33,604 bases of DNA from Chloroflexota bacterium (GCA_016875645.1 VGPE01000003.1:1-33604); one strand, 5' to 3'. Counted from the first letter of the stretch, positions 21,582 to 33,604 are shown. Numbers and translations: made by a program. Notes: generated by a model from the letters alone, not told the origin.

Positions 21582-22856
21582 GTGCGCCCGGTCACGGTCC
21601 TGATCCTCCACCCGCCATCCCCCGCAGACGGTGGCGAGCCCGTCCGCTGGCTTGCGACCGCCCGCGAGGTCATCGCCGAGGGGCATCGCGCCGCCTTCGT
21701 GGCGGCCGGGGCGGAACACGTGCGCGTCGTGAGCCAGGATGGCGGGCCGCTCACGTTCGGCCAGCGACTGCGCTCCCTGGCGCGCGAGGTGGTCGAGGCG
21801 ACCCTGCCCGGCCGTCGCCATGGCCTCGTCGTCATCGGGTCGGGGGCGATGCCGCTGGCGCGCCGCTTGGACCTCGAGGAGTTCGTCAGGGTGGCCCGCA
21901 GTGTCGCGCGACGCCCGGTTGCGCTCGCCAACAGCTACTACTCGGCCGACGCCGTTGCGATCCCGGACGCGGCCATCCTCCTGGCCCTGCCGGACCTGCC
22001 GTCTGATAACGCGCTCCCGCGCTGGCTCGCGGAGCGGGCCGGCGTGCCCGTGCGCGATCGCCGGAACGTCTGGCGCCTCAGTGTCGACATCGACTCGCCA
22101 CTCGATGTGGTCCTGCTCGCCGGTGATCCCGGTTGTCCGCCGGCACTCCGCGCGCTCGCCCGCGAAATCGCGGCCGGTGCCCCCGAGTTCACCGACGCCC
22201 TGCGTGGCGTCGTGGCGGTGATGGCGGACCGGCGCTCTGAGCTCTTCGTGGCCGGCCGCTCGTCGTCACGGACCCTGCGCTGGCTCGAGACCCGTGTGGC
22301 CTGCCGCGTCCGCGCCCTCATCGAGGAGCGGGGCATGCGCTCTGGCACCGCCCTTGCGCTGGGGGACCTCGACGAGGAACGCGACCAGCCACCGGCCGTC
22401 CCGGCGGCCTCGGTCGAGCTCGCCCCGCCGCGATCGCTGCTGGCGCTGGCCCTTGACGAATCCGGCCCGCGACAATTGGCACCGCTGATCGGTCAGCTCT
22501 GCGACGCGGCGGTGCTCGACAGCCGGGTCCTGCTGGCGCACCGGCTCGGGAGCGACGAGCGGCGCTGGCCACCGCTGGCACAGCGGCTCGCGTCCGATCT
22601 CCTCCGCCCTGACGAGGTGCGCGATCCGTGGCTGCGCGAGCTGACGCGGCGGGCATTGGCCGCGCGCCGGCCGATCCTGCTGGGTGGGCACACCCTGGTG
22701 GGACCCGGGCTGCCCCTGATCCCCGGTGCCGTTCGCTGGTTGGATCAGCCGGAGGAGCCGGAGGAGCCGGAGAAGCCGGCCGCGCCGGAGCCGGAGGAGC
22801 CGGCCGCGCCGTCGGATGCGCGGCTGCGGCCGAGCCTCTGGGATGAGGCGACATGA
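21582..22856 (+). CDS. Uncharacterised protein, N-terminal half possibly nucleotidyltransferase/GT-A-like
   Basis: GLVVIGSGAMPLARRLDLEEFV, LPDLPSDNALPRWL, WRLSVDIDSPLDVVLLA pattern reminiscent of NTP-transferase folds; Pro/Glu-rich C-terminus; stop overlaps the next ATG. Confidence 0.5.
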   Translation: MRPVTVLILHPPSPADGGEPVRWLATAREVIAEGHRAAFVAAGAEHVRVVSQDGGPLTFGQRLRSLAREVVEATLPGRRHGLVVIGSGAMPLARRLDLEEFVRVARSVARRPVALANSYYSADAVAIPDAAILLALPDLPSDNALPRWLAERAGVPVRDRRNVWRLSVDIDSPLDVVLLAGDPGCPPALRALAREIAAGAPEFTDALRGVVAVMADRRSELFVAGRSSSRTLRWLETRVACRVRALIEERGMRSGTALALGDLDEERDQPPAVPAASVELAPPRSLLALALDESGPRQLAPLIGQLCDAAVLDSRVLLAHRLGSDERRWPPLAQRLASDLLRPDEVRDPWLRELTRRALAARRPILLGGHTLVGPGLPLIPGAVRWLDQPEEPEEPEKPAAPEPEEPAAPSDARLRPSLWDEAT

Positions 22857-24010
22857 CGGCGCCCCTGTCCGATGCCGAGCTGGCCGAGATCATCGGGCGG
22901 GAGATCGACGGTGCGGGCGGGGCGATCCCGTTCGCCCGCTTCATGGAGCTTGCGCTCTATGACCCGGATCACGGGTACTACCTCCAGCCACGACCTGCCG
23001 CCGGCCGGCACGGCGCAGACTTCCTGACGGCGCCCGAGCTGCACCCGATCTTCGGCCAGGTGGTTGCCCGCCAGATCGCGGAGATGCGATCCCGCCTGGG
23101 CGAACCGCCCGACTTCACCATCCGGGAGTACGCGGCCGGCAGTGGCGCGCTGGCCGAGGCGATCCTGGGCGAGATGGGCGCGGACGTCCGCTACGAAGCG
23201 ATCGAGCTCAACCGGCATCGGCGTGCGGAGCTGGCAGCGCGCCTGCCCCTGGCGCGGGTCACGGCCGGCGCGTCCGACACCCCGATCACCGGGGTCGTCC
23301 TCGCCAACGAGCTGCTGGACGCTCTGCCCGTCCACCGCGTGGTGATGCGCGGCGGGCGCCTGCGGGAGGTCTACGTTCGACGAGGCGAAACCGCCCGGTC
23401 CTTCACCGACCAGGAGGGCGAGCCCTCCACGCCGGCCCTCGCGGCACGCCTGGCGGCCGAGGGCGTGGACCTTGCCGACGGTCAGCGGAGTGAAGTCAAC
23501 CTTGGCATCGAGGCGTGGCTGGCCGAAGCAGCCACGGGGCTGCACCGCGGCTACATGCTGATCGTCGACTACGGGTACCGGGCCGCGGACCTCTATTCCG
23601 AGCGCAGGGGGGCCGGCACGTTGCTGAGCTACTCGGGCCACCGCGTGGTCGACGATCCGTACGCCGACGTCGGACGGCAGGACCTCACCGCCCACGTGGA
23701 CTTCACGGCCGTGGAACGTGCCGCACGTCGAGCCGGCCTGACGCCCCTGGGCCTCACGAGCCAGGCGGAGTTCCTCGTCGGGGCCGGCGCGGAAACCGTC
23801 GTGGAGCGCGTCCGGACTGATCCCGCGACCGACCTGGCGGGTTGGGTTGCGCTCCGCTCCGCGCTCGGCCGGCTGCTGGATCCCCGTGCCATGGGCGCCT
23901 TCAAGGTGTGCGTGCTTGGCCGAGGGATCCCGATCGAGCCACCGCTGCAGGGTCTCGCGTACCGCATCGCGGGGCCACCGGCGGCGGCACCGGGCGGGGA
24001 CGCACAGTAG
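22853..24010 (+). CDS. SAM-dependent methyltransferase, MidA/NDUFAF7 family
   Basis: IPFARFMELALYDPDHGYYLQ..DFLTAPELHPIFGQVVARQIAEM, EYAAGSGALAEAIL, VLANELLDALPVHRV. Confidence 0.88.
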   Translation: MTAPLSDAELAEIIGREIDGAGGAIPFARFMELALYDPDHGYYLQPRPAAGRHGADFLTAPELHPIFGQVVARQIAEMRSRLGEPPDFTIREYAAGSGALAEAILGEMGADVRYEAIELNRHRRAELAARLPLARVTAGASDTPITGVVLANELLDALPVHRVVMRGGRLREVYVRRGETARSFTDQEGEPSTPALAARLAAEGVDLADGQRSEVNLGIEAWLAEAATGLHRGYMLIVDYGYRAADLYSERRGAGTLLSYSGHRVVDDPYADVGRQDLTAHVDFTAVERAARRAGLTPLGLTSQAEFLVGAGAETVVERVRTDPATDLAGWVALRSALGRLLDPRAMGAFKVCVLGRGIPIEPPLQGLAYRIAGPPAAAPGGDAQ

Positions 24011-24113: not shown

Positions 24114-24488
24114 ATGAAACATGAGGTTGACGTGACCGGCGTCTGGTACGTGCTGGGCTTCGCGTTCGCGGGGGTCTCGTTCGTGTTCCTGACGATCGGC
24201 GCGTCCTGGCTGCTCACCCACCGCAACAAGGGCGACCATCACAAGGGACTGCCCTACGAGAGCGGCATCGATACGTACGGCGACCCACACGCGCGGTTCG
24301 GCCTCTCGTTCTACATCTACGCTCTGCTCTTTGTCGCCTTCGACATTGAGGTCATCTTCATCTACCTCTGGGCGATCATCTTCAAGGACCTGTTGCTGGG
24401 CGGCTTCGTGAGCATGCTCATCTTCGTGGCCATCCTGATGCTGGGGCTCGCCTACGCCTGGCGGAAGGGAGTGCTCACGTGGCGCTGA
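24114..24488 (+). CDS. nuoA: NADH-quinone oxidoreductase subunit A
   Basis: [44 protein letters not shown]. Confidence 0.93.
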
Positions 24489-25240
24489 CTCCTGATGCGC
24501 CCGGTGCCCCCGGTGGCGCCGCCCCCGGCGACGTGACCGCAGGCGCCTCCGGGCAGGCCGGAACCATGCCGGTCGCCATGCCGGCGGATTCGTCGCGGGC
24601 GCTCACCGAGGCGATCGTCGTCCCCAATTCGCTGTGGACCTCGGCCAACCCGATTGCCTACAACGGCGGACGGCCCGCAGAGATCACGCACCTGCGCGAG
24701 TGGGCGCAGACCGAGGATGCTCGACGCGACAACGCCCGCTGGGGGGCGCTCGAGGTGATCCCGACCAAGGCGGACTACGTGCTGGACCTCATCCGCGCGA
24801 ACAGCCTCTGGCCGCTCCTGTCGGGACTGGCGTGCTGTGCCATCGAGATGATGTCGGCGGCCACCAGCAAGAACGATATGGACCGCTGGGGGATGTTCCC
24901 GTTCCGCGCCAGTCCCCGCCAGGCCGACGTGCTGATCGTGGCGGGAACCCTGACCACGAAGATGTCCGGCCCGCTGCTCCGGCTCTGGGAGCAGATGCCG
25001 GAGCCCAAGTGGTGCGTGGCGATGGGTGACTGCACCGTGTCGGGCGGCCGCTACAAGCGCAGCTACTCCACGGTCGAGGGAATCGACCGGATCATGCCGG
25101 TCGACGTGTACGTGCCCGGCTGTCCCCCGCGACCCGAGGGGCTGATCTTCGGGATGATGAAGCTGCAGCAGCTCGTCAAAGACCGCCGCGGCCACTGGCC
25201 CGAGCGGATGGTTGGGCCCAACGTGCCCGACGGCGTCTGA
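24479..25240 (+). CDS. nuoB: NADH-quinone oxidoreductase subunit B, with N-terminal extension
   Basis: [29 protein letters not shown]2-cluster ligands; GTG start overlapping the nuoA end. Confidence 0.92.
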
Positions 25241-25251
25241 GCGGGACGATC

Positions 25252-25803
25252 ATGGATCCAGCGTTCAAGCGGCGGCTCGAGACCCGCTTCCGCGGCGTTC
25301 TCCTGGGCCCGGTCCACCAGCGCCACGACGAGACCGAGATCCGGGTGGGCCCGGGCGATGTCTCCGCGGTCATGCGCGCCCTCCACGACGAGCCGACCTT
25401 TCGCTTCGAGTTCCTCTCGGACGTGTGTGGCGTGGACACCGGCGTCGTGATGCAGGTGGTCTACCACCTCTGGAGCGAGACGACCGCGGACTGGCTGCGG
25501 GTCATCGCGGACGGCCTGTCGCGCGACGATCCGCGGGTCCCATCACTCACCCCGTTGTGGCCGGGTGCGGAGTGGATGGAACGCGAGGCCTACGACATGT
25601 TCGGCATCACGTTCGAGGGGAACCGCGACCTGCGGCGCATCTACATGCCGCCTGACTACATGGCGTTTCCGCTCCGCAAGGACTTCTATCTGCCCGACGA
25701 TGCGGCCCGTTCGCCCGGGGCCGGCGTTCGGCATGTCGAGCAGTCGCACGCCCCGGTGAATGCCGACCCGTCGGTCACGGTCCGGACGGCCCGCGGAGCC
25801 TGA
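25252..25803 (+). CDS. nuoC: NADH-quinone oxidoreductase subunit C
   Basis: FEFLSDVCGVD, VPSLTPLWPGAEWMEREAYDMFGITFEGNRDLRRIYMP. Confidence 0.92.
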   Translation: MDPAFKRRLETRFRGVLLGPVHQRHDETEIRVGPGDVSAVMRALHDEPTFRFEFLSDVCGVDTGVVMQVVYHLWSETTADWLRVIADGLSRDDPRVPSLTPLWPGAEWMEREAYDMFGITFEGNRDLRRIYMPPDYMAFPLRKDFYLPDDAARSPGAGVRHVEQSHAPVNADPSVTVRTARGA

Positions 25804-25804
25804 C

Positions 25805-27025
25805 ATGGTGACCCACAGCCGGCAACCTTCGGCCGACGACCCCCGCGTCCTGCTGGACCAGGAAATCGGCGTCTTCGAGCCGGTCCCGCCGTATCCCCCG
25901 CGCACGGAGCGCGAAGCCGAGTTCTACACCCTCGGCGACGGCGAGATGTTCGTGAACATGGGCCCCCAGCACCCGTCCACCCACGGTGTGTTGCGGATCG
26001 TGCTCAAGCTCAACGGCGAGCAGGTGGTCGACCTGGATCCGGTGCTCGGCTACCTCCACCGCGGCGTCGAGAAGATCTGTGAGAACAGCGACTACCACCA
26101 CATCGTCAACCAGCTGGACCCGCTCGAGTACATCTCGTCGCTGTTCATGGAGTGGCCCTACGTCCAGGCCGCGGAGAAGCTCCTGGACCTGGAGGTCCCC
26201 CGCCGCGCCGAATACATCCGTGTCCTGTCGGGCGAGCTCAACCGCATCGCCAGTCACGCGCTGTTCATGGGCTGGTTCGCACTGGACCTCGGCGGGCTGA
26301 CGCCGATCCTGTGGAGCTTCATCGAGCGCGACGAGATCGTGGAGATGCTCGGCGCGCTGACCGGCGCCCGGATGCTCTTCAACTACTTCCGGATCGGCGG
26401 CGTGAACGGCGACCTGAACCACGAGTTCATGAGCCGCCTCGGGTCCTGGATGAGCCGCGCCGCGACGCAGATCGAAGCCAACACAAAGCTTCTCAACGAG
26501 AACGAGATCTTCGTCCGGCGGGCCCGCGGCCTCGGCCGGATGGACCGCGAGATGGCCCTCCGGATGTGCGTCACCGGGCCGAACCTGCGCGCGACCGGCG
26601 TCCCGTTCGACGTCCGGCGTGCCCACCCCTATTCCATCTACCCGGAGCTGGACTTCGACGTCCCGACCCGCACGGAAGGCGACTCGCTGGCGCGGTACCT
26701 GCTCCGGGTCGACGAGGTGAAGCAGAGCCTGCGCATCATCGACCAGTGCCTGCACCAGATGCCCGACGGGCCGATCATGGCCCGCATCCCACGCCTGATC
26801 CGGCCGCGCCCGGGGCGTGCCTACGGGGCGGTCGAAAGCCCGCGCGGCCAGTACACCATGTACATGATCAGCGACGGAACCGACCAGCCCTTCCGGCTGC
26901 GGATCCACGATCCATCGTTTGTGCATCTCGGGTCGGTCGGTCGCCTGGTGCCGGGCAACCTGGTCGCCGACACCATGGCCATCATGGCGAGCCTCGACCC
27001 GGTCATGGGCGGCGTCGACAAGTGA
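25805..27025 (+). CDS. nuoD: NADH-quinone oxidoreductase subunit D
   Basis: NMGPQHPSTHGVLRIVLKLNGE, GYLHRGVEK, FDVRRAHPYSIY; His/Tyr/Asp quinone-site residues present. Confidence 0.95.
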   Translation: MVTHSRQPSADDPRVLLDQEIGVFEPVPPYPPRTEREAEFYTLGDGEMFVNMGPQHPSTHGVLRIVLKLNGEQVVDLDPVLGYLHRGVEKICENSDYHHIVNQLDPLEYISSLFMEWPYVQAAEKLLDLEVPRRAEYIRVLSGELNRIASHALFMGWFALDLGGLTPILWSFIERDEIVEMLGALTGARMLFNYFRIGGVNGDLNHEFMSRLGSWMSRAATQIEANTKLLNENEIFVRRARGLGRMDREMALRMCVTGPNLRATGVPFDVRRAHPYSIYPELDFDVPTRTEGDSLARYLLRVDEVKQSLRIIDQCLHQMPDGPIMARIPRLIRPRPGRAYGAVESPRGQYTMYMISDGTDQPFRLRIHDPSFVHLGSVGRLVPGNLVADTMAIMASLDPVMGGVDK

Positions 27026-27152: not shown

Positions 27153-28493
27153 ATGACCACCGTTTCGCGGGCGTGGGGCCGGCTGACGCTGCCCGGGAAG
27201 ATCTTCTTCACGGTCGTGCCGCTGCTGCTCGTGCTCGGGCTGGGCGGGCTGATCGCGATCATGCTGCTGGGGCCGCTCGTGCTCCAGATCCTCGGCGACA
27301 ACCTGCCGCTCGTGCGGTTCGTCATCGCTGCAACCGCGGTGCTGCTCGCCGCGATCCCGATCGCCTTCCTGAACATCTTCATGGAAATGAAGGTCATTGC
27401 CTTCATGAACCTGCGGATCGGCCCCGATCGGGTTGGTCCCTGGGGCACCCTCCTGTCGGTCGTCCACGGGCTCAAGGTGCTCGGCAAGGAAGACTTCACC
27501 CCGACCGGCGCCGACCGGACCATCTTCACCTTGGCGCCGGTGGTGGTCTTCCTGGGCACCGTGATGTCGTTCCTGGTCATCCCGTTTGCACCCGGGCTGT
27601 TTGGCCAGGACTTCAACATCGGGCTGCTGTACTTCTTCGCGGTCGGCGGCCTGACGGTGGTCGGGCTGATGATGGCCGGCTGGGCCAGCTTCAACAAGTA
27701 CTCGCTCCTGGGCGGGCTCCGCGCCGCGGCGCAGATCGTCTCGTACGAGATCCCGTTGACGCTTTCGGTCGTCGGCATCCTCATGCTGGCCGGCACGATG
27801 AGCCTCAACCAGATCGTGCTCAACCAGTCCGGCTCGTTCCTGGACTGGTACGTGTTCCAGCAGCCGCTGGGCGCATTGATCTTCCTGATCGCCATCACCG
27901 CCGAGGCCAATCGCGCCCCGTTCGACCTGACCGAAGCCGATTCGGAGATCGTGGCGGGCTTTGCAACCGAGTACTCGGGCATGCGCTTCGGCTTCCTGTT
28001 CTTCGCCGAGTACGTGAACATGTTCATCGTCTCGGCCCTCACCGTGACGCTGTTCTTCGGCGGCTGGAACGCGCCGTTCGACTGGCCGTTCCCGATCAGC
28101 GCGAACCTCGATCCGGCGAGCCTCGGAATCGGGCTGCTGATCCTGGTGGCGGTGGTCCCCCTGATCGGAACCCTCGCGCTGGCAGCGCCGTTCTGGCTCA
28201 TGCGCAGCTCCATGCCCACCTGGCAGGCACTCGTGATCGGGTTCGTGCTGTTCAACGTGCTGGCGGTCGCGGCGGTCCTCGGCTGGGCCTTCGTCAGCTG
28301 GGAGTGGGTCGTCGGATTGCTCTGGTCTATGATCAAGGCCTACGGGTTCGTGTTCTTCTTCGTCTGGCTGCGCGGTACGCTGCCCCGCGTCCGGATCGAT
28401 CAGCTGATGAATTTCGCGTGGAAGTGGCTGCTGCCCGCGGCGCTTCTGAACCTGTTCGTGACAGCGCTCGCGATCATCGTGCTGGGCCGCTGA
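27153..28493 (+). CDS. nuoH: NADH-quinone oxidoreductase subunit H
   Basis: MNLRIGPDRVGPWGTLLSVVHGLKVLGKEDFTPTGADR, AEANRAPFDLTEADSEIVAGFATEYSGMRFGFLFFAEY. Confidence 0.95.
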   Translation: MTTVSRAWGRLTLPGKIFFTVVPLLLVLGLGGLIAIMLLGPLVLQILGDNLPLVRFVIAATAVLLAAIPIAFLNIFMEMKVIAFMNLRIGPDRVGPWGTLLSVVHGLKVLGKEDFTPTGADRTIFTLAPVVVFLGTVMSFLVIPFAPGLFGQDFNIGLLYFFAVGGLTVVGLMMAGWASFNKYSLLGGLRAAAQIVSYEIPLTLSVVGILMLAGTMSLNQIVLNQSGSFLDWYVFQQPLGALIFLIAITAEANRAPFDLTEADSEIVAGFATEYSGMRFGFLFFAEYVNMFIVSALTVTLFFGGWNAPFDWPFPISANLDPASLGIGLLILVAVVPLIGTLALAAPFWLMRSSMPTWQALVIGFVLFNVLAVAAVLGWAFVSWEWVVGLLWSMIKAYGFVFFFVWLRGTLPRVRIDQLMNFAWKWLLPAALLNLFVTALAIIVLGR

Positions 28494-28539: not shown

Positions 28540-29373
28540 ATGAGCTTGCTGTCGGGCCTGGTGCCCGGTCTGGGCCTGGCGAAGGGCATGGCGCTGGGCC
28601 TCGTGCGCTTCTTCCAGCCCAAGGCCACGATCATGTACCCGGAGGCGGCGCCGGACGTCAGCCCGCGCTTCCGCGGCCGGCTGCAACTGCTGTACGACGA
28701 GTGGGGCACGCTCAAGTGCGAGACGTGCTTCCAGTGCGCCCAGGCCTGCCCGATCGAGTGCATCGACATGGGTGGCATCGACACCAAGGGCCGCTTCCAC
28801 GTCCACTGGGGCCCGCCCGAGACCTACGGCGAGCGACGCGAGGAATCTGCGCTGCGGCGCTCCGGCCGCCCGGTGCCCGACCGCGAGTACGAGCACTTCG
28901 AGCCGATTGATATGAGGGCGGTGGACGAGGCCCTCGCGCGCTACGACTACGACCCAAAGGAGATGCTGCGCATCCTGGAGGCCACGGACGCGGCGTACGG
29001 CTACCTGCCGGTCGCAGCGCTCAAGCGGATCAGCGACGCGACCGGCGCGTGGTACGCGATGCTCTACGGCACGGCGTCCTATTACCGCCATCTGCGCTTC
29101 GATCCGCCGGTTCGAGTCGTCGCGGTCTGTCGCTGCACGAGCTGCCTGATGGCCGGCGGCGGGCGTGTGCTCGAGGTGCTCGAAGCCTCGCTCGGAACCG
29201 AGATCGGGTCAGTGCCGACACATGGTGGTATCCGCATCGAACAGCTGGCGAGCCACATCCCCGGCGCGACCGCACCGCTCGTCACGTTCGACGGGACCAC
29301 CCAGGTGGGGCTCACCGTGGAGTCCGCTGCAGCCTGGGCGCGGACACTCTCGGGCATCGGCGCCAGGGTTTGA
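28540..29373 (+). CDS. Fusion: NuoI-like N-terminal half (one 4Fe-4S motif) + NuoE-like thioredoxin-fold domain lacking the second Cys pair
   Basis: RFFQPKATIMYPEAAPDVSPRFRGRLQLL..CETCFQCAQACPIECI then VDEALARYDYDPKEMLRILEATDAAYGYLPVAALKRISDATGAWYAMLYGTASYYRHL and VCRCTSCLMAGG. Confidence 0.75.
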   Translation: MSLLSGLVPGLGLAKGMALGLVRFFQPKATIMYPEAAPDVSPRFRGRLQLLYDEWGTLKCETCFQCAQACPIECIDMGGIDTKGRFHVHWGPPETYGERREESALRRSGRPVPDREYEHFEPIDMRAVDEALARYDYDPKEMLRILEATDAAYGYLPVAALKRISDATGAWYAMLYGTASYYRHLRFDPPVRVVAVCRCTSCLMAGGGRVLEVLEASLGTEIGSVPTHGGIRIEQLASHIPGATAPLVTFDGTTQVGLTVESAAAWARTLSGIGARV

Positions 29374-29377
29374 CCGG

Positions 29378-30727
29378 ATGACCCGATTGCTCGCCACTCC
29401 CGCCGAGTGGCCGCGGATCCTGCTCGCCCGCGCCGAACGGGACATCTCCGTCCCTGACCTGGCACCAGAGACGGGCCCCGACCTCGAGCGGGCCTTCACC
29501 CTCGGCGCGTTCGAGGGATTGCGACTCGCCATTGACGAGCTCGGGCCTGAGGGCGTCATCGGCGAGGTCGAGCGGGCGAACCTTCGGGGCCGCGGCGGCG
29601 CGGGGCACCCGGCGGCGGCCAAGTGGCGAGCGGCACGGGCCCAGGAGAGCAGCCGCCGGTTCGTCGTCGCGAACGGCTACGGCGCCGATCCCGCGTCGTT
29701 CACCGACATGATCCTGATGGAACGCGACCCCTGGGCCATTCTCGAAGGCATCGCGATCGTCGCCTACACGATCCGGGCGACCGAGGCGGTGATCGCGATC
29801 CGGGCCGAGTACACCGAGGCCATCCGCCGGCTCGACGAGGCCATCCTCGCCGCCGAGGAGGCCGGCTTCCTGGGCACCGACATCCTGGAGTCGGGCGTCA
29901 ACCTCACGGTCACGGTCCGGGTGGTGCAGGGTGCATACATGCTGGGCGAGGAGACCGTCCTGCTCAAGGCCCTCGAGGGCAAGCGCGGCCAGCCCGAGCA
30001 GCGGCCGCCCTACCCCGCGGCGCGCGGGCTCTTCGGCCAGCCGACGGTGGTCCACAACGTCGCGACTCTCGCCGCCGTGCCGTGGATCATCGCCAACGGC
30101 GCCGCAGCGTTCGCGGCCATCGGCTCGCCCGACGCACCGGGTACTGCTTTGGTCCAGGTCCGCGGCCTTGAAACGGAGGGCATCGCGGAGGTCCCGACGG
30201 GCACCCCGCTGCGCGAGATCGTTGGCCTAACGGCCGCGTTCGGCGGCGGCCGGAAGATCAAGGCGGTCCTCGTCGGCGGGCCGTCCGGCGGCCTGCTACC
30301 GGCCGACCTGCTCGACACCCCATATGCGTTCGAGGCGCTGCGGTCCGTCGGCGGCCATATCGGCTCGGGCTCCGTGGTCGTGGCCGACGAGCGCGCCTGT
30401 GTCGTGGACCTCGCCCGCCTCCTCACCCGGTTCTGCGCGGATGAAGCGTGCGGCAAGACAATCCCGTGCCGGATCGGCCTCAGACGCCTGGCGGAGATCG
30501 CCGAGCGCGCCACGAACGGCCACCCGCGGCCCACCGACGCCCAACTCATCAGCGACCTCTGCCACGATGTCTCCGAATCCGGGCTGTGCGACCACGAGCG
30601 CCTTGCGACCCTTCCGCTGACGACCGGGATGCGATACTTCCGCTCCGAACTCGACGATCACCTGCTCCGCGGGACGTGCCCTGCCGGCGTCTGCCGGCCG
30701 ATCGCCGTGAGCGGAGCGGCGCACTGA
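29378..30727 (+). CDS. Divergent NuoF-like subunit
   Basis: LRGRGGAGHPAAAKW, GAYMLGEETVLLKALEGKRGQPEQRPPYPAARGLFGQPTVVHNVATLA, ACGKTIPCR; several canonical motifs altered. Confidence 0.85.
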   Translation: MTRLLATPAEWPRILLARAERDISVPDLAPETGPDLERAFTLGAFEGLRLAIDELGPEGVIGEVERANLRGRGGAGHPAAAKWRAARAQESSRRFVVANGYGADPASFTDMILMERDPWAILEGIAIVAYTIRATEAVIAIRAEYTEAIRRLDEAILAAEEAGFLGTDILESGVNLTVTVRVVQGAYMLGEETVLLKALEGKRGQPEQRPPYPAARGLFGQPTVVHNVATLAAVPWIIANGAAAFAAIGSPDAPGTALVQVRGLETEGIAEVPTGTPLREIVGLTAAFGGGRKIKAVLVGGPSGGLLPADLLDTPYAFEALRSVGGHIGSGSVVVADERACVVDLARLLTRFCADEACGKTIPCRIGLRRLAEIAERATNGHPRPTDAQLISDLCHDVSESGLCDHERLATLPLTTGMRYFRSELDDHLLRGTCPAGVCRPIAVSGAAH

Positions 30728-30773
30728 TGACACTCTCGTCCCTCGCCCGCATCACCCACGCCCGCGAGATCCG

Positions 30774-33371
30774 ATGACCGACCTGATCGTCCGCCCGGAC
30801 GCCGACGCCACCGCCCTCGCCGAGACGCTGCTCACGATCCAGGCGCCGCAGCGCCCGGTGGCAACGCCGCGCATCCGGATCGAAGTGGACGGTCGCGTCG
30901 TGGAGGGATTCGAGGGCCAGACGATCCTCGAGGTCTGCCGCGACAACGGCATCGAGATCCCGACGCTCTGCTACGAGCCCAAGCTGCCGGGCTTCGGCGC
31001 CTGCCGGATGTGCGTCGTCGAGGTCGAGGGCGAGGACCACCCGCCGATTTCCTGTTCACGCTCGGCTGAGGCGGGCATGAAGGTCCAGACCCAGACCGAG
31101 GAGATGCGCCGGCTGCGCAGAACCAACCTCGAGCTGATCTTCAGCGACCACAACGCGTACTGCCTGCCGCCGTGCCAGAACAAGTGCCCGAGTCACATCG
31201 ACATCCCGGGCTTCCTCAAGATGAACGCCGAGACGAACTGGCGGGAATCCACGCGGATCTTCAAGCGCACGATCCCCTTCCCGTCGGTCCTCGGCCGGGT
31301 CTGCCCTGCCCCGTGCGAGGAGCACTGCCGGCGCGACGAGGTGGACGAGGCGATCGCGATCCGCGACTCGCACCGCTACGCCGGCGACCAGGTGCTCAAG
31401 CAGATGAACGACCAGGGCATCGACCCGCCCGTCCCGTTCGAGCTGCGCGAGAAGAGCGGGCGCCGGGTGGCGGTGATCGGATCCGGGCCCGCGGGCGCTG
31501 CCGCGGCGTACTACCTGCTCATCGTCGGCCACGACGTGACGATCTTCGAGCGTGACGCGGCTCCGGGCGGCATGCTCCGCTACGGCATCCCCCAGTACCG
31601 CCTGCCCAAGGTCGAGGTGCTCGAGGGCGAGTACGAGAGCATCACCCGCCTCGGCGGCCGCTTCGTGTGCAACCAGGGCCTGGGTCGCGACTTCACGCTC
31701 GACGACCTCCAGAACCAGGGCTACGACGCGGTCCTCGTCGCGATCGGGTGCTACGACACCAATAAGCTCGGGATCCCGGGTGAGGACGCCGACGGCGTCA
31801 TCGACGGACTCGAGTACCTGCGGACCGCGACGCTCGGCCTGGAGTACCCGGGCCACAAGGGCAGCCGGGTGGTCGTGATCGGCGGCGGCTTCACCTCGAT
31901 GGACTGCACGCGCACGTCCGTGCGCCAGGGTGCCGCCGACGTGACCCTCGTTTACCGGCGCGACATGAAGGACATGCCGGCGTCGAACGAGGTCCACGAG
32001 GCGATCGAGGAAGGCGCGACGGCGATCTTCCAGGCCGGCCCGGTCCGGGTCGTCACCGACGCGAATAACAAGGTGACCGGCGTTGAGTTCATCCGGATGC
32101 GCCTGGGCGAGCCCGACGCATCCGGCCGGCGACGCCCGGAACCGGCGGCCGGCACCGAGTTCACGCTGCCCTGCGACCGGGTGCTGCTGGCGATCGGCCA
32201 GGGCCCCGACCTGTCGTGGATCGGGCCCGGCAGCGAGGGCCCCAAGCCGAATCGCCAGCGCCGTCTGGCGGCTGACGCAGTCACCTTCGCCACCGGGCGG
32301 CCCGGCGTGTTCGGGACCGGCGACGTCCGCATCGGGTCCGCAACGGTCGTGGAAGCCGTCGCCGAGGGTCGGCGGGCCGCCTACGCGGCGGACGCCTACG
32401 TGCGCGGGATGGACCTCGATGCGATCCGGACGCGCCAGACCCTGGCCGAGCCGAAGCCGGAGTTCCTCTCGATCGTGCCGTTCACGAGCGAGGCCAAGGA
32501 GCCGCGCTACCGCATGACGGCCATGGAGCCCGAGGCGCGCAACACCAACTACATCGAGTACGAGATCCCGTATACCCGCGAGGCGGCCGTCGCCGAGTCC
32601 ACGCGCTGTCTCCAGTGCACGTGCGAGGCGATCGGGTTCTGCGACCTGCGGCGCCTGGGGATCGAGTACGGCACGACACTGCGCACCCTGGAGCCGCAGC
32701 ATCACAGTGGGGCGGGCCATCGCTCGGTGACCGAGAACCGGTTCACAGGCACCAATCACGACTACCTTCGCGACGACAGCCACGCCTTCATCCTGCGCGA
32801 GCCCTCGCGCTGCATCGACTGCGGACGCTGCGCCAACGTCTGTGCGGAGGTCGTTGGGGCCGCCTGCTACGACTTCATGCGGATCGGCTTCGACACGCTC
32901 GTGACGACGCCGCTCGACATGAGCCTCAACGACACCCCGTGCGTGTCCTGCGGCCGCTGTGCGGAGACGTGCCCGACCGGCGCCCTCATGCCCAAGCCCC
33001 GCGTCCTGCAGAAGTACGAGGTGGACGAGAGCCGCTGCATCCTGTGCGGCATCTGCGTGGATGCCTGCCCGTACGACGCGCTGCGCGACAGCACCGAGCT
33101 CGAGCTTGCGCACGACAGCCGTGTGCAGCCGATGATCGACCTGCTGGCGTATTCAGCCACGGCACGCGACACCGAGGTCAGCTACATCCGACGCGAGCGC
33201 GACTGGGCCGAACGGGCCATGGCCGAGGGCCGCCTGCTCGATCCCGGCCGCCTCCTGCCCGTCCTGCCCGCAACGATCGGTGCGCGCGTTCCCGGCGCCG
33301 GTGGCGAGGGCAACGGTCACGGCCATGGCAACGGCCACGGCTCGGCGTCACTGCCTGCCCATCACAAGTAA
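30774..33371 (+). CDS. Multidomain iron-sulfur flavoprotein: NuoG-type 2Fe-2S + GltD/NfnB-like FAD/NAD(P) oxidoreductase + 4Fe-4S domains, NuoI-like C-terminus
   Basis: CYEPKLPGFGACRMCVVEVEG...; CLPPCQNKCPSHIDIPGF; GRVCPAPCEEHC; VAVIGSGPAGAAAAYYLL; VVVIGGGFTSMDCTRTSVRQGAADVTLVYRR; CIDCGRCANVC; CVSCGRCAETCPTGAL; CILCGICVDACPYDAL. Confidence 0.88.
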   Translation: MTDLIVRPDADATALAETLLTIQAPQRPVATPRIRIEVDGRVVEGFEGQTILEVCRDNGIEIPTLCYEPKLPGFGACRMCVVEVEGEDHPPISCSRSAEAGMKVQTQTEEMRRLRRTNLELIFSDHNAYCLPPCQNKCPSHIDIPGFLKMNAETNWRESTRIFKRTIPFPSVLGRVCPAPCEEHCRRDEVDEAIAIRDSHRYAGDQVLKQMNDQGIDPPVPFELREKSGRRVAVIGSGPAGAAAAYYLLIVGHDVTIFERDAAPGGMLRYGIPQYRLPKVEVLEGEYESITRLGGRFVCNQGLGRDFTLDDLQNQGYDAVLVAIGCYDTNKLGIPGEDADGVIDGLEYLRTATLGLEYPGHKGSRVVVIGGGFTSMDCTRTSVRQGAADVTLVYRRDMKDMPASNEVHEAIEEGATAIFQAGPVRVVTDANNKVTGVEFIRMRLGEPDASGRRRPEPAAGTEFTLPCDRVLLAIGQGPDLSWIGPGSEGPKPNRQRRLAADAVTFATGRPGVFGTGDVRIGSATVVEAVAEGRRAAYAADAYVRGMDLDAIRTRQTLAEPKPEFLSIVPFTSEAKEPRYRMTAMEPEARNTNYIEYEIPYTREAAVAESTRCLQCTCEAIGFCDLRRLGIEYGTTLRTLEPQHHSGAGHRSVTENRFTGTNHDYLRDDSHAFILREPSRCIDCGRCANVCAEVVGAACYDFMRIGFDTLVTTPLDMSLNDTPCVSCGRCAETCPTGALMPKPRVLQKYEVDESRCILCGICVDACPYDALRDSTELELAHDSRVQPMIDLLAYSATARDTEVSYIRRERDWAERAMAEGRLLDPGRLLPVLPATIGARVPGAGGEGNGHGHGNGHGSASLPAHHK

Positions 33372-33449: not shown

Positions 33450-33604
33450 GTGGCGATACCGAACACGGTCCCGTTCATCGGGATCGGCTGGGACGACGTG
33501 CTGTTTCTGATCTTCGCGGCGGCGATGATCGGGACGGCCCTGCTCGTCGTCACGATGAAGGACATCATCCGCTGCGGCCTGGCCATGATCGCCTCCTTCG
33601 CCGC
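33450..33604 (+). CDS. nuoJ: NADH-quinone oxidoreductase subunit J, N-terminal part, truncated by window end
   Basis: GTG start, translation VAIPNTVPFIGIGWDDVLFLIFAAAMIGTALLVVTMKDIIRCGLAMIASFA; hydrophobic NuoJ-like start in operon context. Confidence 0.7.
   Translation, partial: MAIPNTVPFIGIGWDDVLFLIFAAAMIGTALLVVTMKDIIRCGLAMIASFA

Follow-up and report, generated by a model that had tools for sequence, protein, structure and literature searches.

A complex I locus of Chloroflexota in which NuoI is divided between two fusion proteins

Complex I is usually regarded as having an invariant core of 14 subunits, among which NuoI (NDUFS8) links the input module to the quinone site. The locus studied here, from a Chloroflexota bacterium (GCA_016875645.1), raises the question of how this link is made in an operon that has no nuoI gene and carries half-ferredoxin motifs on two other proteins.

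The operon and the two NuoI halves

The window, that is, the whole stretch of DNA analysed (33,604 nucleotides), is an entire contig (C3) of a 2.85-Mb assembly that is 91% complete and comprises 371 contigs. Its right end carries nuoA, B, C, D and H, the gene for a 277-aa protein (IE), nuoF and the gene for an 865-aa protein (G protein), and the contig stops just within the presumed nuoJ. The features are as follows.

24114-24488, plus strand: nuoA (PF00507, 1.8e-31)
24479-25240, plus strand: nuoB, for the carrier of N2 and acceptor of N6b electrons (PF01058 and NuoB models over cut-off)
25252-25803, plus strand: nuoC (PF00329, 9e-39)
25760-27025, plus strand: nuoD, without the loop of about 25 residues of E. 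coli NuoD (PF00346 in two pieces, 1-173 and 198-271; alignment)
27153-28493, plus strand: nuoH (PF00146, 1.1e-105)
28540-29373, plus strand: NuoI(N)-NuoE fusion (IE), 277 aa
28585-28776, plus strand: NuoI N-terminal half, profile 1-63, including the first cysteine motif (TIGR01971, 49.8 bits)
28717-28752, plus strand: first half-ferredoxin motif CETCFQCAQACP (C60, C63, C66, C70), invariant in 96/96 loci
28792-28911, plus strand: conserved linker from the NuoI half to NuoE (median identity over 80 loci 78%; NuoE part 45%)
28912-29334, plus strand: NuoE-like thioredoxin-fold domain with an incomplete N1a ligand set (PF01257; structure search gave NuoE/HydC-type chains)
29378-30727, plus strand: NuoF-like subunit, 449 aa, with altered FMN/NADH loop (PF01512, PF10589; alignment with E. 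coli NuoF)
30449-30469, plus strand: N3 motif of NuoF, CGKTIPC, second cysteine ligand replaced by Thr (alignment column of E. coli C354)
30774-33371, plus strand: NuoG-like, NfnA/StnC-type protein ending in NuoI(C), 865 aa
30873-31097, plus strand: [2Fe-2S] domain of the G protein (PF13510; C66, C77, C80 and C94 conserved)
31161-32408, plus strand: GltD-like domain of the G protein with predicted FAD and NAD(P)H sites and [4Fe-4S] ligands (PF14691, PF07992, GltD models)
32607-32642, plus strand: CLQCTCEAIGFC of the G protein, a probable further [4Fe-4S] site (four Cys conserved; counterpart in 9bov_A)
32751-32999, plus strand: 2[4Fe-4S] dicluster domain of the G protein (eight Cys in 70/70 loci)
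33000-33128, plus strand: NuoI C-terminal half, profile 71-113 (TIGR01971, 39.5 bits)
33036-33071, plus strand: second half-ferredoxin motif CILCGICVDACP (C755, C758, C761, C765), in 67/70 loci
33450-33604, plus strand: presumed nuoJ start, truncated at the contig end (position and sequence; nuoJ lies at the same place in relatives)

The translation of nuoB showed the CC, GDC and PGCPP cysteines. The true start of nuoD may lie inside the annotated ORF. A Pfam search with the 51-aa piece of nuoJ gave no match. In family members on longer contigs, the gene order is A-B-C-D-H-IE-F-G-J-K-L-M-N without nuoI. Membership in complex I is supported by NuoA, B, C, D and H in the window and by J to N directly downstream in relatives. 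Immediately upstream of nuoA, at 22853-24010, lies a gene for a SAM-dependent methyltransferase (PF02636, 4.2e-49), of a family that includes NDUFAF7, a mitochondrial complex I assembly factor.

We compared both fusion proteins with the NuoI model TIGR01971, which has 121 positions and a curated cut-off of 113 bits. The IE protein resembled NuoI at residues 16-79 (model positions 1-63) and NuoE from about residue 125, and it contained only one CxxCxxCxxxCP motif, the first cysteine of which (C60) is encoded at 28717. Residues 743-785 of the G protein corresponded to positions 71-113. These two pieces, at 49.8 and 39.5 bits, were the best NuoI matches in the whole assembly; membership in the model was unmet, since no single protein exceeded 113 bits. 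The halves are complementary. The break falls between the two CxxCxxCxxxCP motifs, about seven profile positions are missing, and all eight NuoI-motif cysteines are present, spread over two subunits. A preliminary description of the window had proposed a NuoI-like N-terminus with a single motif from 28717 followed by NuoE in the 277-aa protein, and this was confirmed by TIGR01971 and PF01257. It had also read the C-terminus of the 865-aa protein as the second half of NuoI. The match to positions 71-113 bears this out, with the stretch running from Y748 at 33015 (not 33014) to about 33146, and the alignment to the profile that it had called for placed the two segments on complementary halves (1-63 and 71-113). 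Its further suggestion, that the two segments jointly restore the N6a/N6b cluster pair, remains an inference.

The same description had held that a better score of the C-terminal segment against generic ferredoxin or FdhA profiles would refute the proposal. Such an origin was ruled out, as the best scores were all NuoI. The 73-aa C-terminal piece alone gave 44.6 and 42.0 bits against NuoI models, its seven top models were all NuoI, and outside that family the highest score was 28.9 bits ([FeFe] hydrogenase). The N-terminal 90 residues of IE scored up to 56.3 bits, with NuoI as the best family. For composite scoring, an extra HMM was built from six canonical NuoI sequences. With this HMM, the in silico composite of the two halves gave 114 bits in one colinear match and the parts alone 69.7 and 41.0, and a control composite, in which the second half was swapped for the neighbouring dicluster motif, gave 94 bits. 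NuoI in the window is divided in two, and each half is fused to a different subunit. As far as sequence alone can tell, the evidence for this split is very strong.

Occurrence and conservation of the divided NuoI

A scan of named genome contigs gave 156 confirmed relatives. The best 80 of these 156 were nearly all labelled Chloroflexi MAGs, including Candidatus Limnocylindrus, Limnocylindrales and Aquidulcis, and on these labels the window was placed in the class Limnocylindria. A few relative records were labelled otherwise (Thermoflexus, Thermomicrobiales, Anaerolinea). In families f3 and f5 of the class, B-D-IE-F-G are clustered, and C-H-J-K-L-M-N (plus A where seen) lie at another site. 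A plasmid search found no IE fusion, and no description of a split NuoI was found in the open-access literature.

A whole NuoI was searched for with TIGR01971. The source assembly gave no match above the 113-bit cut-off, and NuoI over the cut-off was found in none of 61 genomes (its own and those of its family, order and class, Limnocylindria). Intact loci among these 61 genomes gave two half matches about 4 kb apart, in the same order. A single-chain NuoI with both 4Fe-4S motifs was not found in the assembly, the 61 genomes or the operons of relatives, and a nuoI gene downstream or elsewhere in the genome was ruled out by these searches. The preliminary description had also regarded a separate full-length NuoI gene downstream of the window as a refutation; there is none, as the gene order of relatives runs directly into nuoJKLMN. 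Longer NuoI-like matches in three genomes (G007, G012 and G018) were rejected as the NuoI of complex I, as on our reading of their neighbourhood they look like parts of hydrogenase-type complexes; they adjoin distant NuoD/NuoB homologues (NuoD identity 27-30%). With the assembly only 91% complete and in 371 contigs, an assembly or annotation artefact, with a full NuoI present elsewhere in the genome, could be suspected. However, the same layout recurred in 80 loci of public MAGs and in numerous further genomes, including intact nuoA-N operons, and the 61 genomes had no NuoI over the cut-off. We consider the chance of such an artefact negligible, as it is already refuted by independent assemblies.

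We then examined 121 genomes spread evenly over the phylum Chloroflexota. The IE protein was present in 30 of them, 15 in Limnocylindria and 15 in five other families; in one of the 30 (G084) the match was shorter, with B, F and G adjoining. At a threshold of E below 1e-150, the G protein was present in 29 of the 30 IE-bearing genomes and in none of the other 91. G151 was the sole IE-bearing genome without a match at this threshold, and in G152 the match ended at residue 566. Co-occurrence of the two NuoI-half proteins in the phylum sample is almost perfect. Outside the class, a full NuoI over the cut-off was found in 11 of 12 IE-bearing genomes checked, the exception being the incomplete G084, and a second, full-length nuoD in all ten checked for nuoD. 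These carriers therefore also have a canonical complex I. Nine Limnocylindria genomes had one nuoH-type and one nuoD-type gene each, and no more were found. Since the split recurs in relatives and in families outside the class, it goes beyond chance. In the outgroup families (L182-L195, L200, L203), the second complex I type was seen as separate operons, B-IE-F-G and A-C-D-H, and J-N were not located. Genus g50 has a tandem second NuoG-GltD-NuoI(C) gene beside the first (L189 3418-8469, L195 2802-7825).

The four cysteines of the N-terminal half were present in 96/96 loci and those of the C-terminal half in 67 of 70 scorable loci. In one of the three exceptions (L096) the motif itself is intact, and an assembly gap (NN plus a small duplication) lies immediately before it. 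The other two (L076 and L131) are one frameshifted gene of the same genome, Chloroflexi bacterium CSP1-4, counted twice. The frameshift lies at residue 747, exactly at the junction of dicluster and NuoI half, and the match resumes in another frame; either a sequencing error or a further split could explain this. In the named loci, the median identity to the window was 79% for the N-terminal half, 78% for the linker and 79% for the C-terminal half, as against 45% for NuoE, 56% for NuoF, 80% for GltD and 95% for the dicluster. The G chain is far better conserved than NuoF.

The electron input module and a proposed route

The preliminary description was silent on the GltD-type flavin domain and on the ligand losses in NuoE and NuoF, which together indicate that the entry point of electrons has probably moved. 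The complete N1a ligand set (four cysteines, by comparison with E. coli) was found in 0 of 96 loci, and some members lack the entire second part of NuoE. Of 90 loci, 83, with the window among them, have Thr, Ser or Ala in place of the second N3 cysteine of NuoF (E. coli C354); the other seven have Cys there and kept every N3 cysteine. D92 in the FMN loop was mostly Tyr, and the residue at E. coli E95 was Asp, the same as in bifurcating relatives. In the outgroup families the N3 motif was intact and the N1a cysteines were missing. The ligand losses leave a canonical NADH site (FMN, N3 and N1a in NuoEF) unmet; there are no direct data on FMN binding. N3 is the sole known exit from FMN into the cluster chain. 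With a ligand of N3 lost, it is doubtful that electrons enter through NuoF in most members. Judging from the Asp at E95 and the seven loci with all N3 cysteines, NuoF need not be dead everywhere. The NuoE/NuoF pair is probably structural. The transhydrogenase subunit PntB was found in all 14 Limnocylindria genomes tested and could link the NADH and NADPH pools; an NDH2_C domain was found in 4 of the 14.

The G protein matched 9bov_A over residues 34-765 with 527 bits, followed by Thermococcus NfnA and then StnC of Sporomusa. By its entry title, 9bov is the NfnABC complex of Caldicellulosiruptor. The order of the G protein is [2Fe-2S], GltD-like FAD/NAD(P)H domain, four-Cys site, dicluster and NuoI half, so that StnC/NfnA membership is met by [2Fe-2S], GltD and dicluster in one chain. 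The C-terminal FdhF-like domain of StnC is absent, as the match to 9bov_A stops at residue 765 and NuoI is the best match beyond the dicluster. The GltD motifs GxGxxG, GGG and VYRR were invariant in 39 aligned members. In StnC, NADPH reduces the FAD in the GltD domain, and electrons pass via C7, C6, C5, C4 and C3 (PMC10482914). The same paper describes C1 and C2, towards the FdhF-like domain, as a branch without function and notes that the C2 cysteines are absent from relatives (PMC10482914). The mapping of C1-C7 onto the G protein is inferred from order and spacing, and the CLQCTCEAIGFC site is taken here as the counterpart of C5. An invariant dicluster with a NuoI half in the place of the FdhF-like domain would be expected, we infer, if this branch were now the exit to N6a/N6b. 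The AlphaFold model of the G protein (mean pLDDT 54, residues 588-762 below 50) gave no information on the junction.

A 2[4Fe-4S] fold has two CxxCxxCxxxCP motifs, and each motif lends its fourth cysteine to the cluster of its counterpart. Once the arm is assembled, the two NuoI halves would pair and rebuild N6a and N6b; from ferredoxin chemistry, either cluster would then have three cysteine ligands from one chain and a single one from its partner. NdhI, a homologue of NuoI, supplies on its own the four cysteines of N6a as well as those of N6b (PMC6616624). We favour an explanation in trans because the halves are complementary in coverage, no full NuoI was found, the composite is colinear, the operon lacks nuoI and the eight cysteines are conserved, and also because co-occurrence is near-perfect in the 121 genomes and nine genomes have a single nuoH/nuoD type. 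In the AlphaFold model of IE alone, the NuoE domain was confident and the N-terminal NuoI half had low pLDDT although it is highly conserved, which favours pairing of the halves. Against the explanation stands the low AlphaFold confidence at both half-ferredoxin regions, which may only reflect thin alignments. The halves might instead not form one ferredoxin, each motif binding its own [4Fe-4S] cluster, so that two single-cluster domains in series replace N6a/N6b. Four cysteines are kept per half, and local ligation is formally possible. However, the cross-ligation by the fourth cysteine, the break between half-domains with a colinear composite, and an N-terminal half not predicted to fold alone all speak against it, and we find this arrangement quite unlikely.

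For the trans-rebuilt NuoI, the route would run from NADPH to the FAD of the GltD-like domain, the GltD clusters, the four-Cys site, the [2Fe-2S] cluster and the dicluster, and then via N6a and N6b to N2 in NuoB and to quinone. Entry of NADPH at GltD is favoured by the invariant GltD motifs and dicluster cysteines, as compared with the much less conserved, ligand-losing NuoE and NuoF, and by the reduction of FAD by NADPH in the same kind of domain in StnC (PMC10482914). A preference for NADPH over NADH is suggested by nothing more than motif similarity. Alternatively, NADH may still enter at the FMN of NuoF, with the GltD domain merely structural or a side entrance. NuoF is kept throughout, seven loci have all N3 cysteines and the outgroup families have an intact N3 motif; against this stand the loss of N1a in 96/96 loci, the loss of one N3 cysteine in 83/90 including the window, a D92 that is usually Tyr, and a G chain conserved much better than NuoF. 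We regard NADH entry as unlikely, though not to be dismissed. The complex could also bifurcate or confurcate like StnABC/NfnABC, with NADPH, NAD+ or ferredoxin, and quinone as the coupled partners. Among solved structures, the G protein is closest to NfnA and StnC, which belong to bifurcating enzymes, and the outgroup families keep the N3 motif. However, Pfam showed no additional FeS domains on the NuoF of the window, and with no complete N1a set either, the requirement for a bifurcating partner module is not fulfilled in the window; an N1a-type cluster, needed by Stn for its reaction (PMC10482914), is missing. We therefore hold bifurcation to be very doubtful.

We consider it likely that the locus encodes a conserved variant of proton-pumping complex I with N6a/N6b rebuilt in trans and NADPH entry via the GltD-like FAD; there are no biochemical data on pumping or quinone reduction. 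We lean only slightly towards the full mechanism, in which two subunits jointly ligate each of N6a and N6b in trans and NADPH feeds the complex via the GltD FAD, with the NuoEF site a degenerate remnant. Without co-fold or biochemical data, it is an inference that the halves pair, that they ligate the clusters across chains, that electrons take the route given above and that NADPH is used.

The NuoD loop of about 25 residues, missing in the window, is present in E. coli and in Chloroflexota locus L199, where E, F and G adjoin. The same loop is missing in Chloroflexota L193, L197 and L198, in whose operons neither nuoE nor nuoF nor nuoG was seen; the L193 operon was only partly recognised. A plausible history, inferred without a tree, is that an 11-subunit complex I was the ancestor and gained an Nfn/Stn-type input module, the NuoI gene being divided meanwhile.

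Significance and comparison with known systems

In this complex the NuoI link comes in two parts, integrated into the input module from both sides. This would show the permanent wiring of an Nfn/Stn-type module to a quinone-reducing, ion-pumping unit, and it predicts that a widespread class, most of it uncultured, has an NADPH-driven complex I and no other. Routine annotation would misread the complex as an ordinary NADH dehydrogenase without nuoI.

The locus shares with canonical complex I (NDH-1, E. coli type) the set and order of A-B-C-D-H and J-K-L-M-N, the N2-type cysteines of NuoB and the NuoI-type cysteine motifs. It differs in that NuoI is split and fused to NuoE and the G protein, NuoG is replaced by an NfnA/StnC-type protein, and N1a, usually one N3 ligand, and the NuoD loop are missing. 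The 11-subunit complex I without NuoEFG likewise has NuoD minus the loop of about 25 residues (L193, L197, L198), whereas the window has an EFG-like input module and a split NuoI that attaches it. With StnC of StnABC (8oh5) and NfnA of NfnABC (9bov/9bp5, 9n5u), the G protein shares the [2Fe-2S] domain, the GltD FAD/NADPH domain, the extra Cys site and the dicluster, and both systems have NuoE- and NuoF-like partner subunits. In StnC and NfnA, however, an FdhF-like domain follows the dicluster where the window has half of NuoI, and the F partner of the window is without extra FeS domains and is encoded inside a complex I operon.
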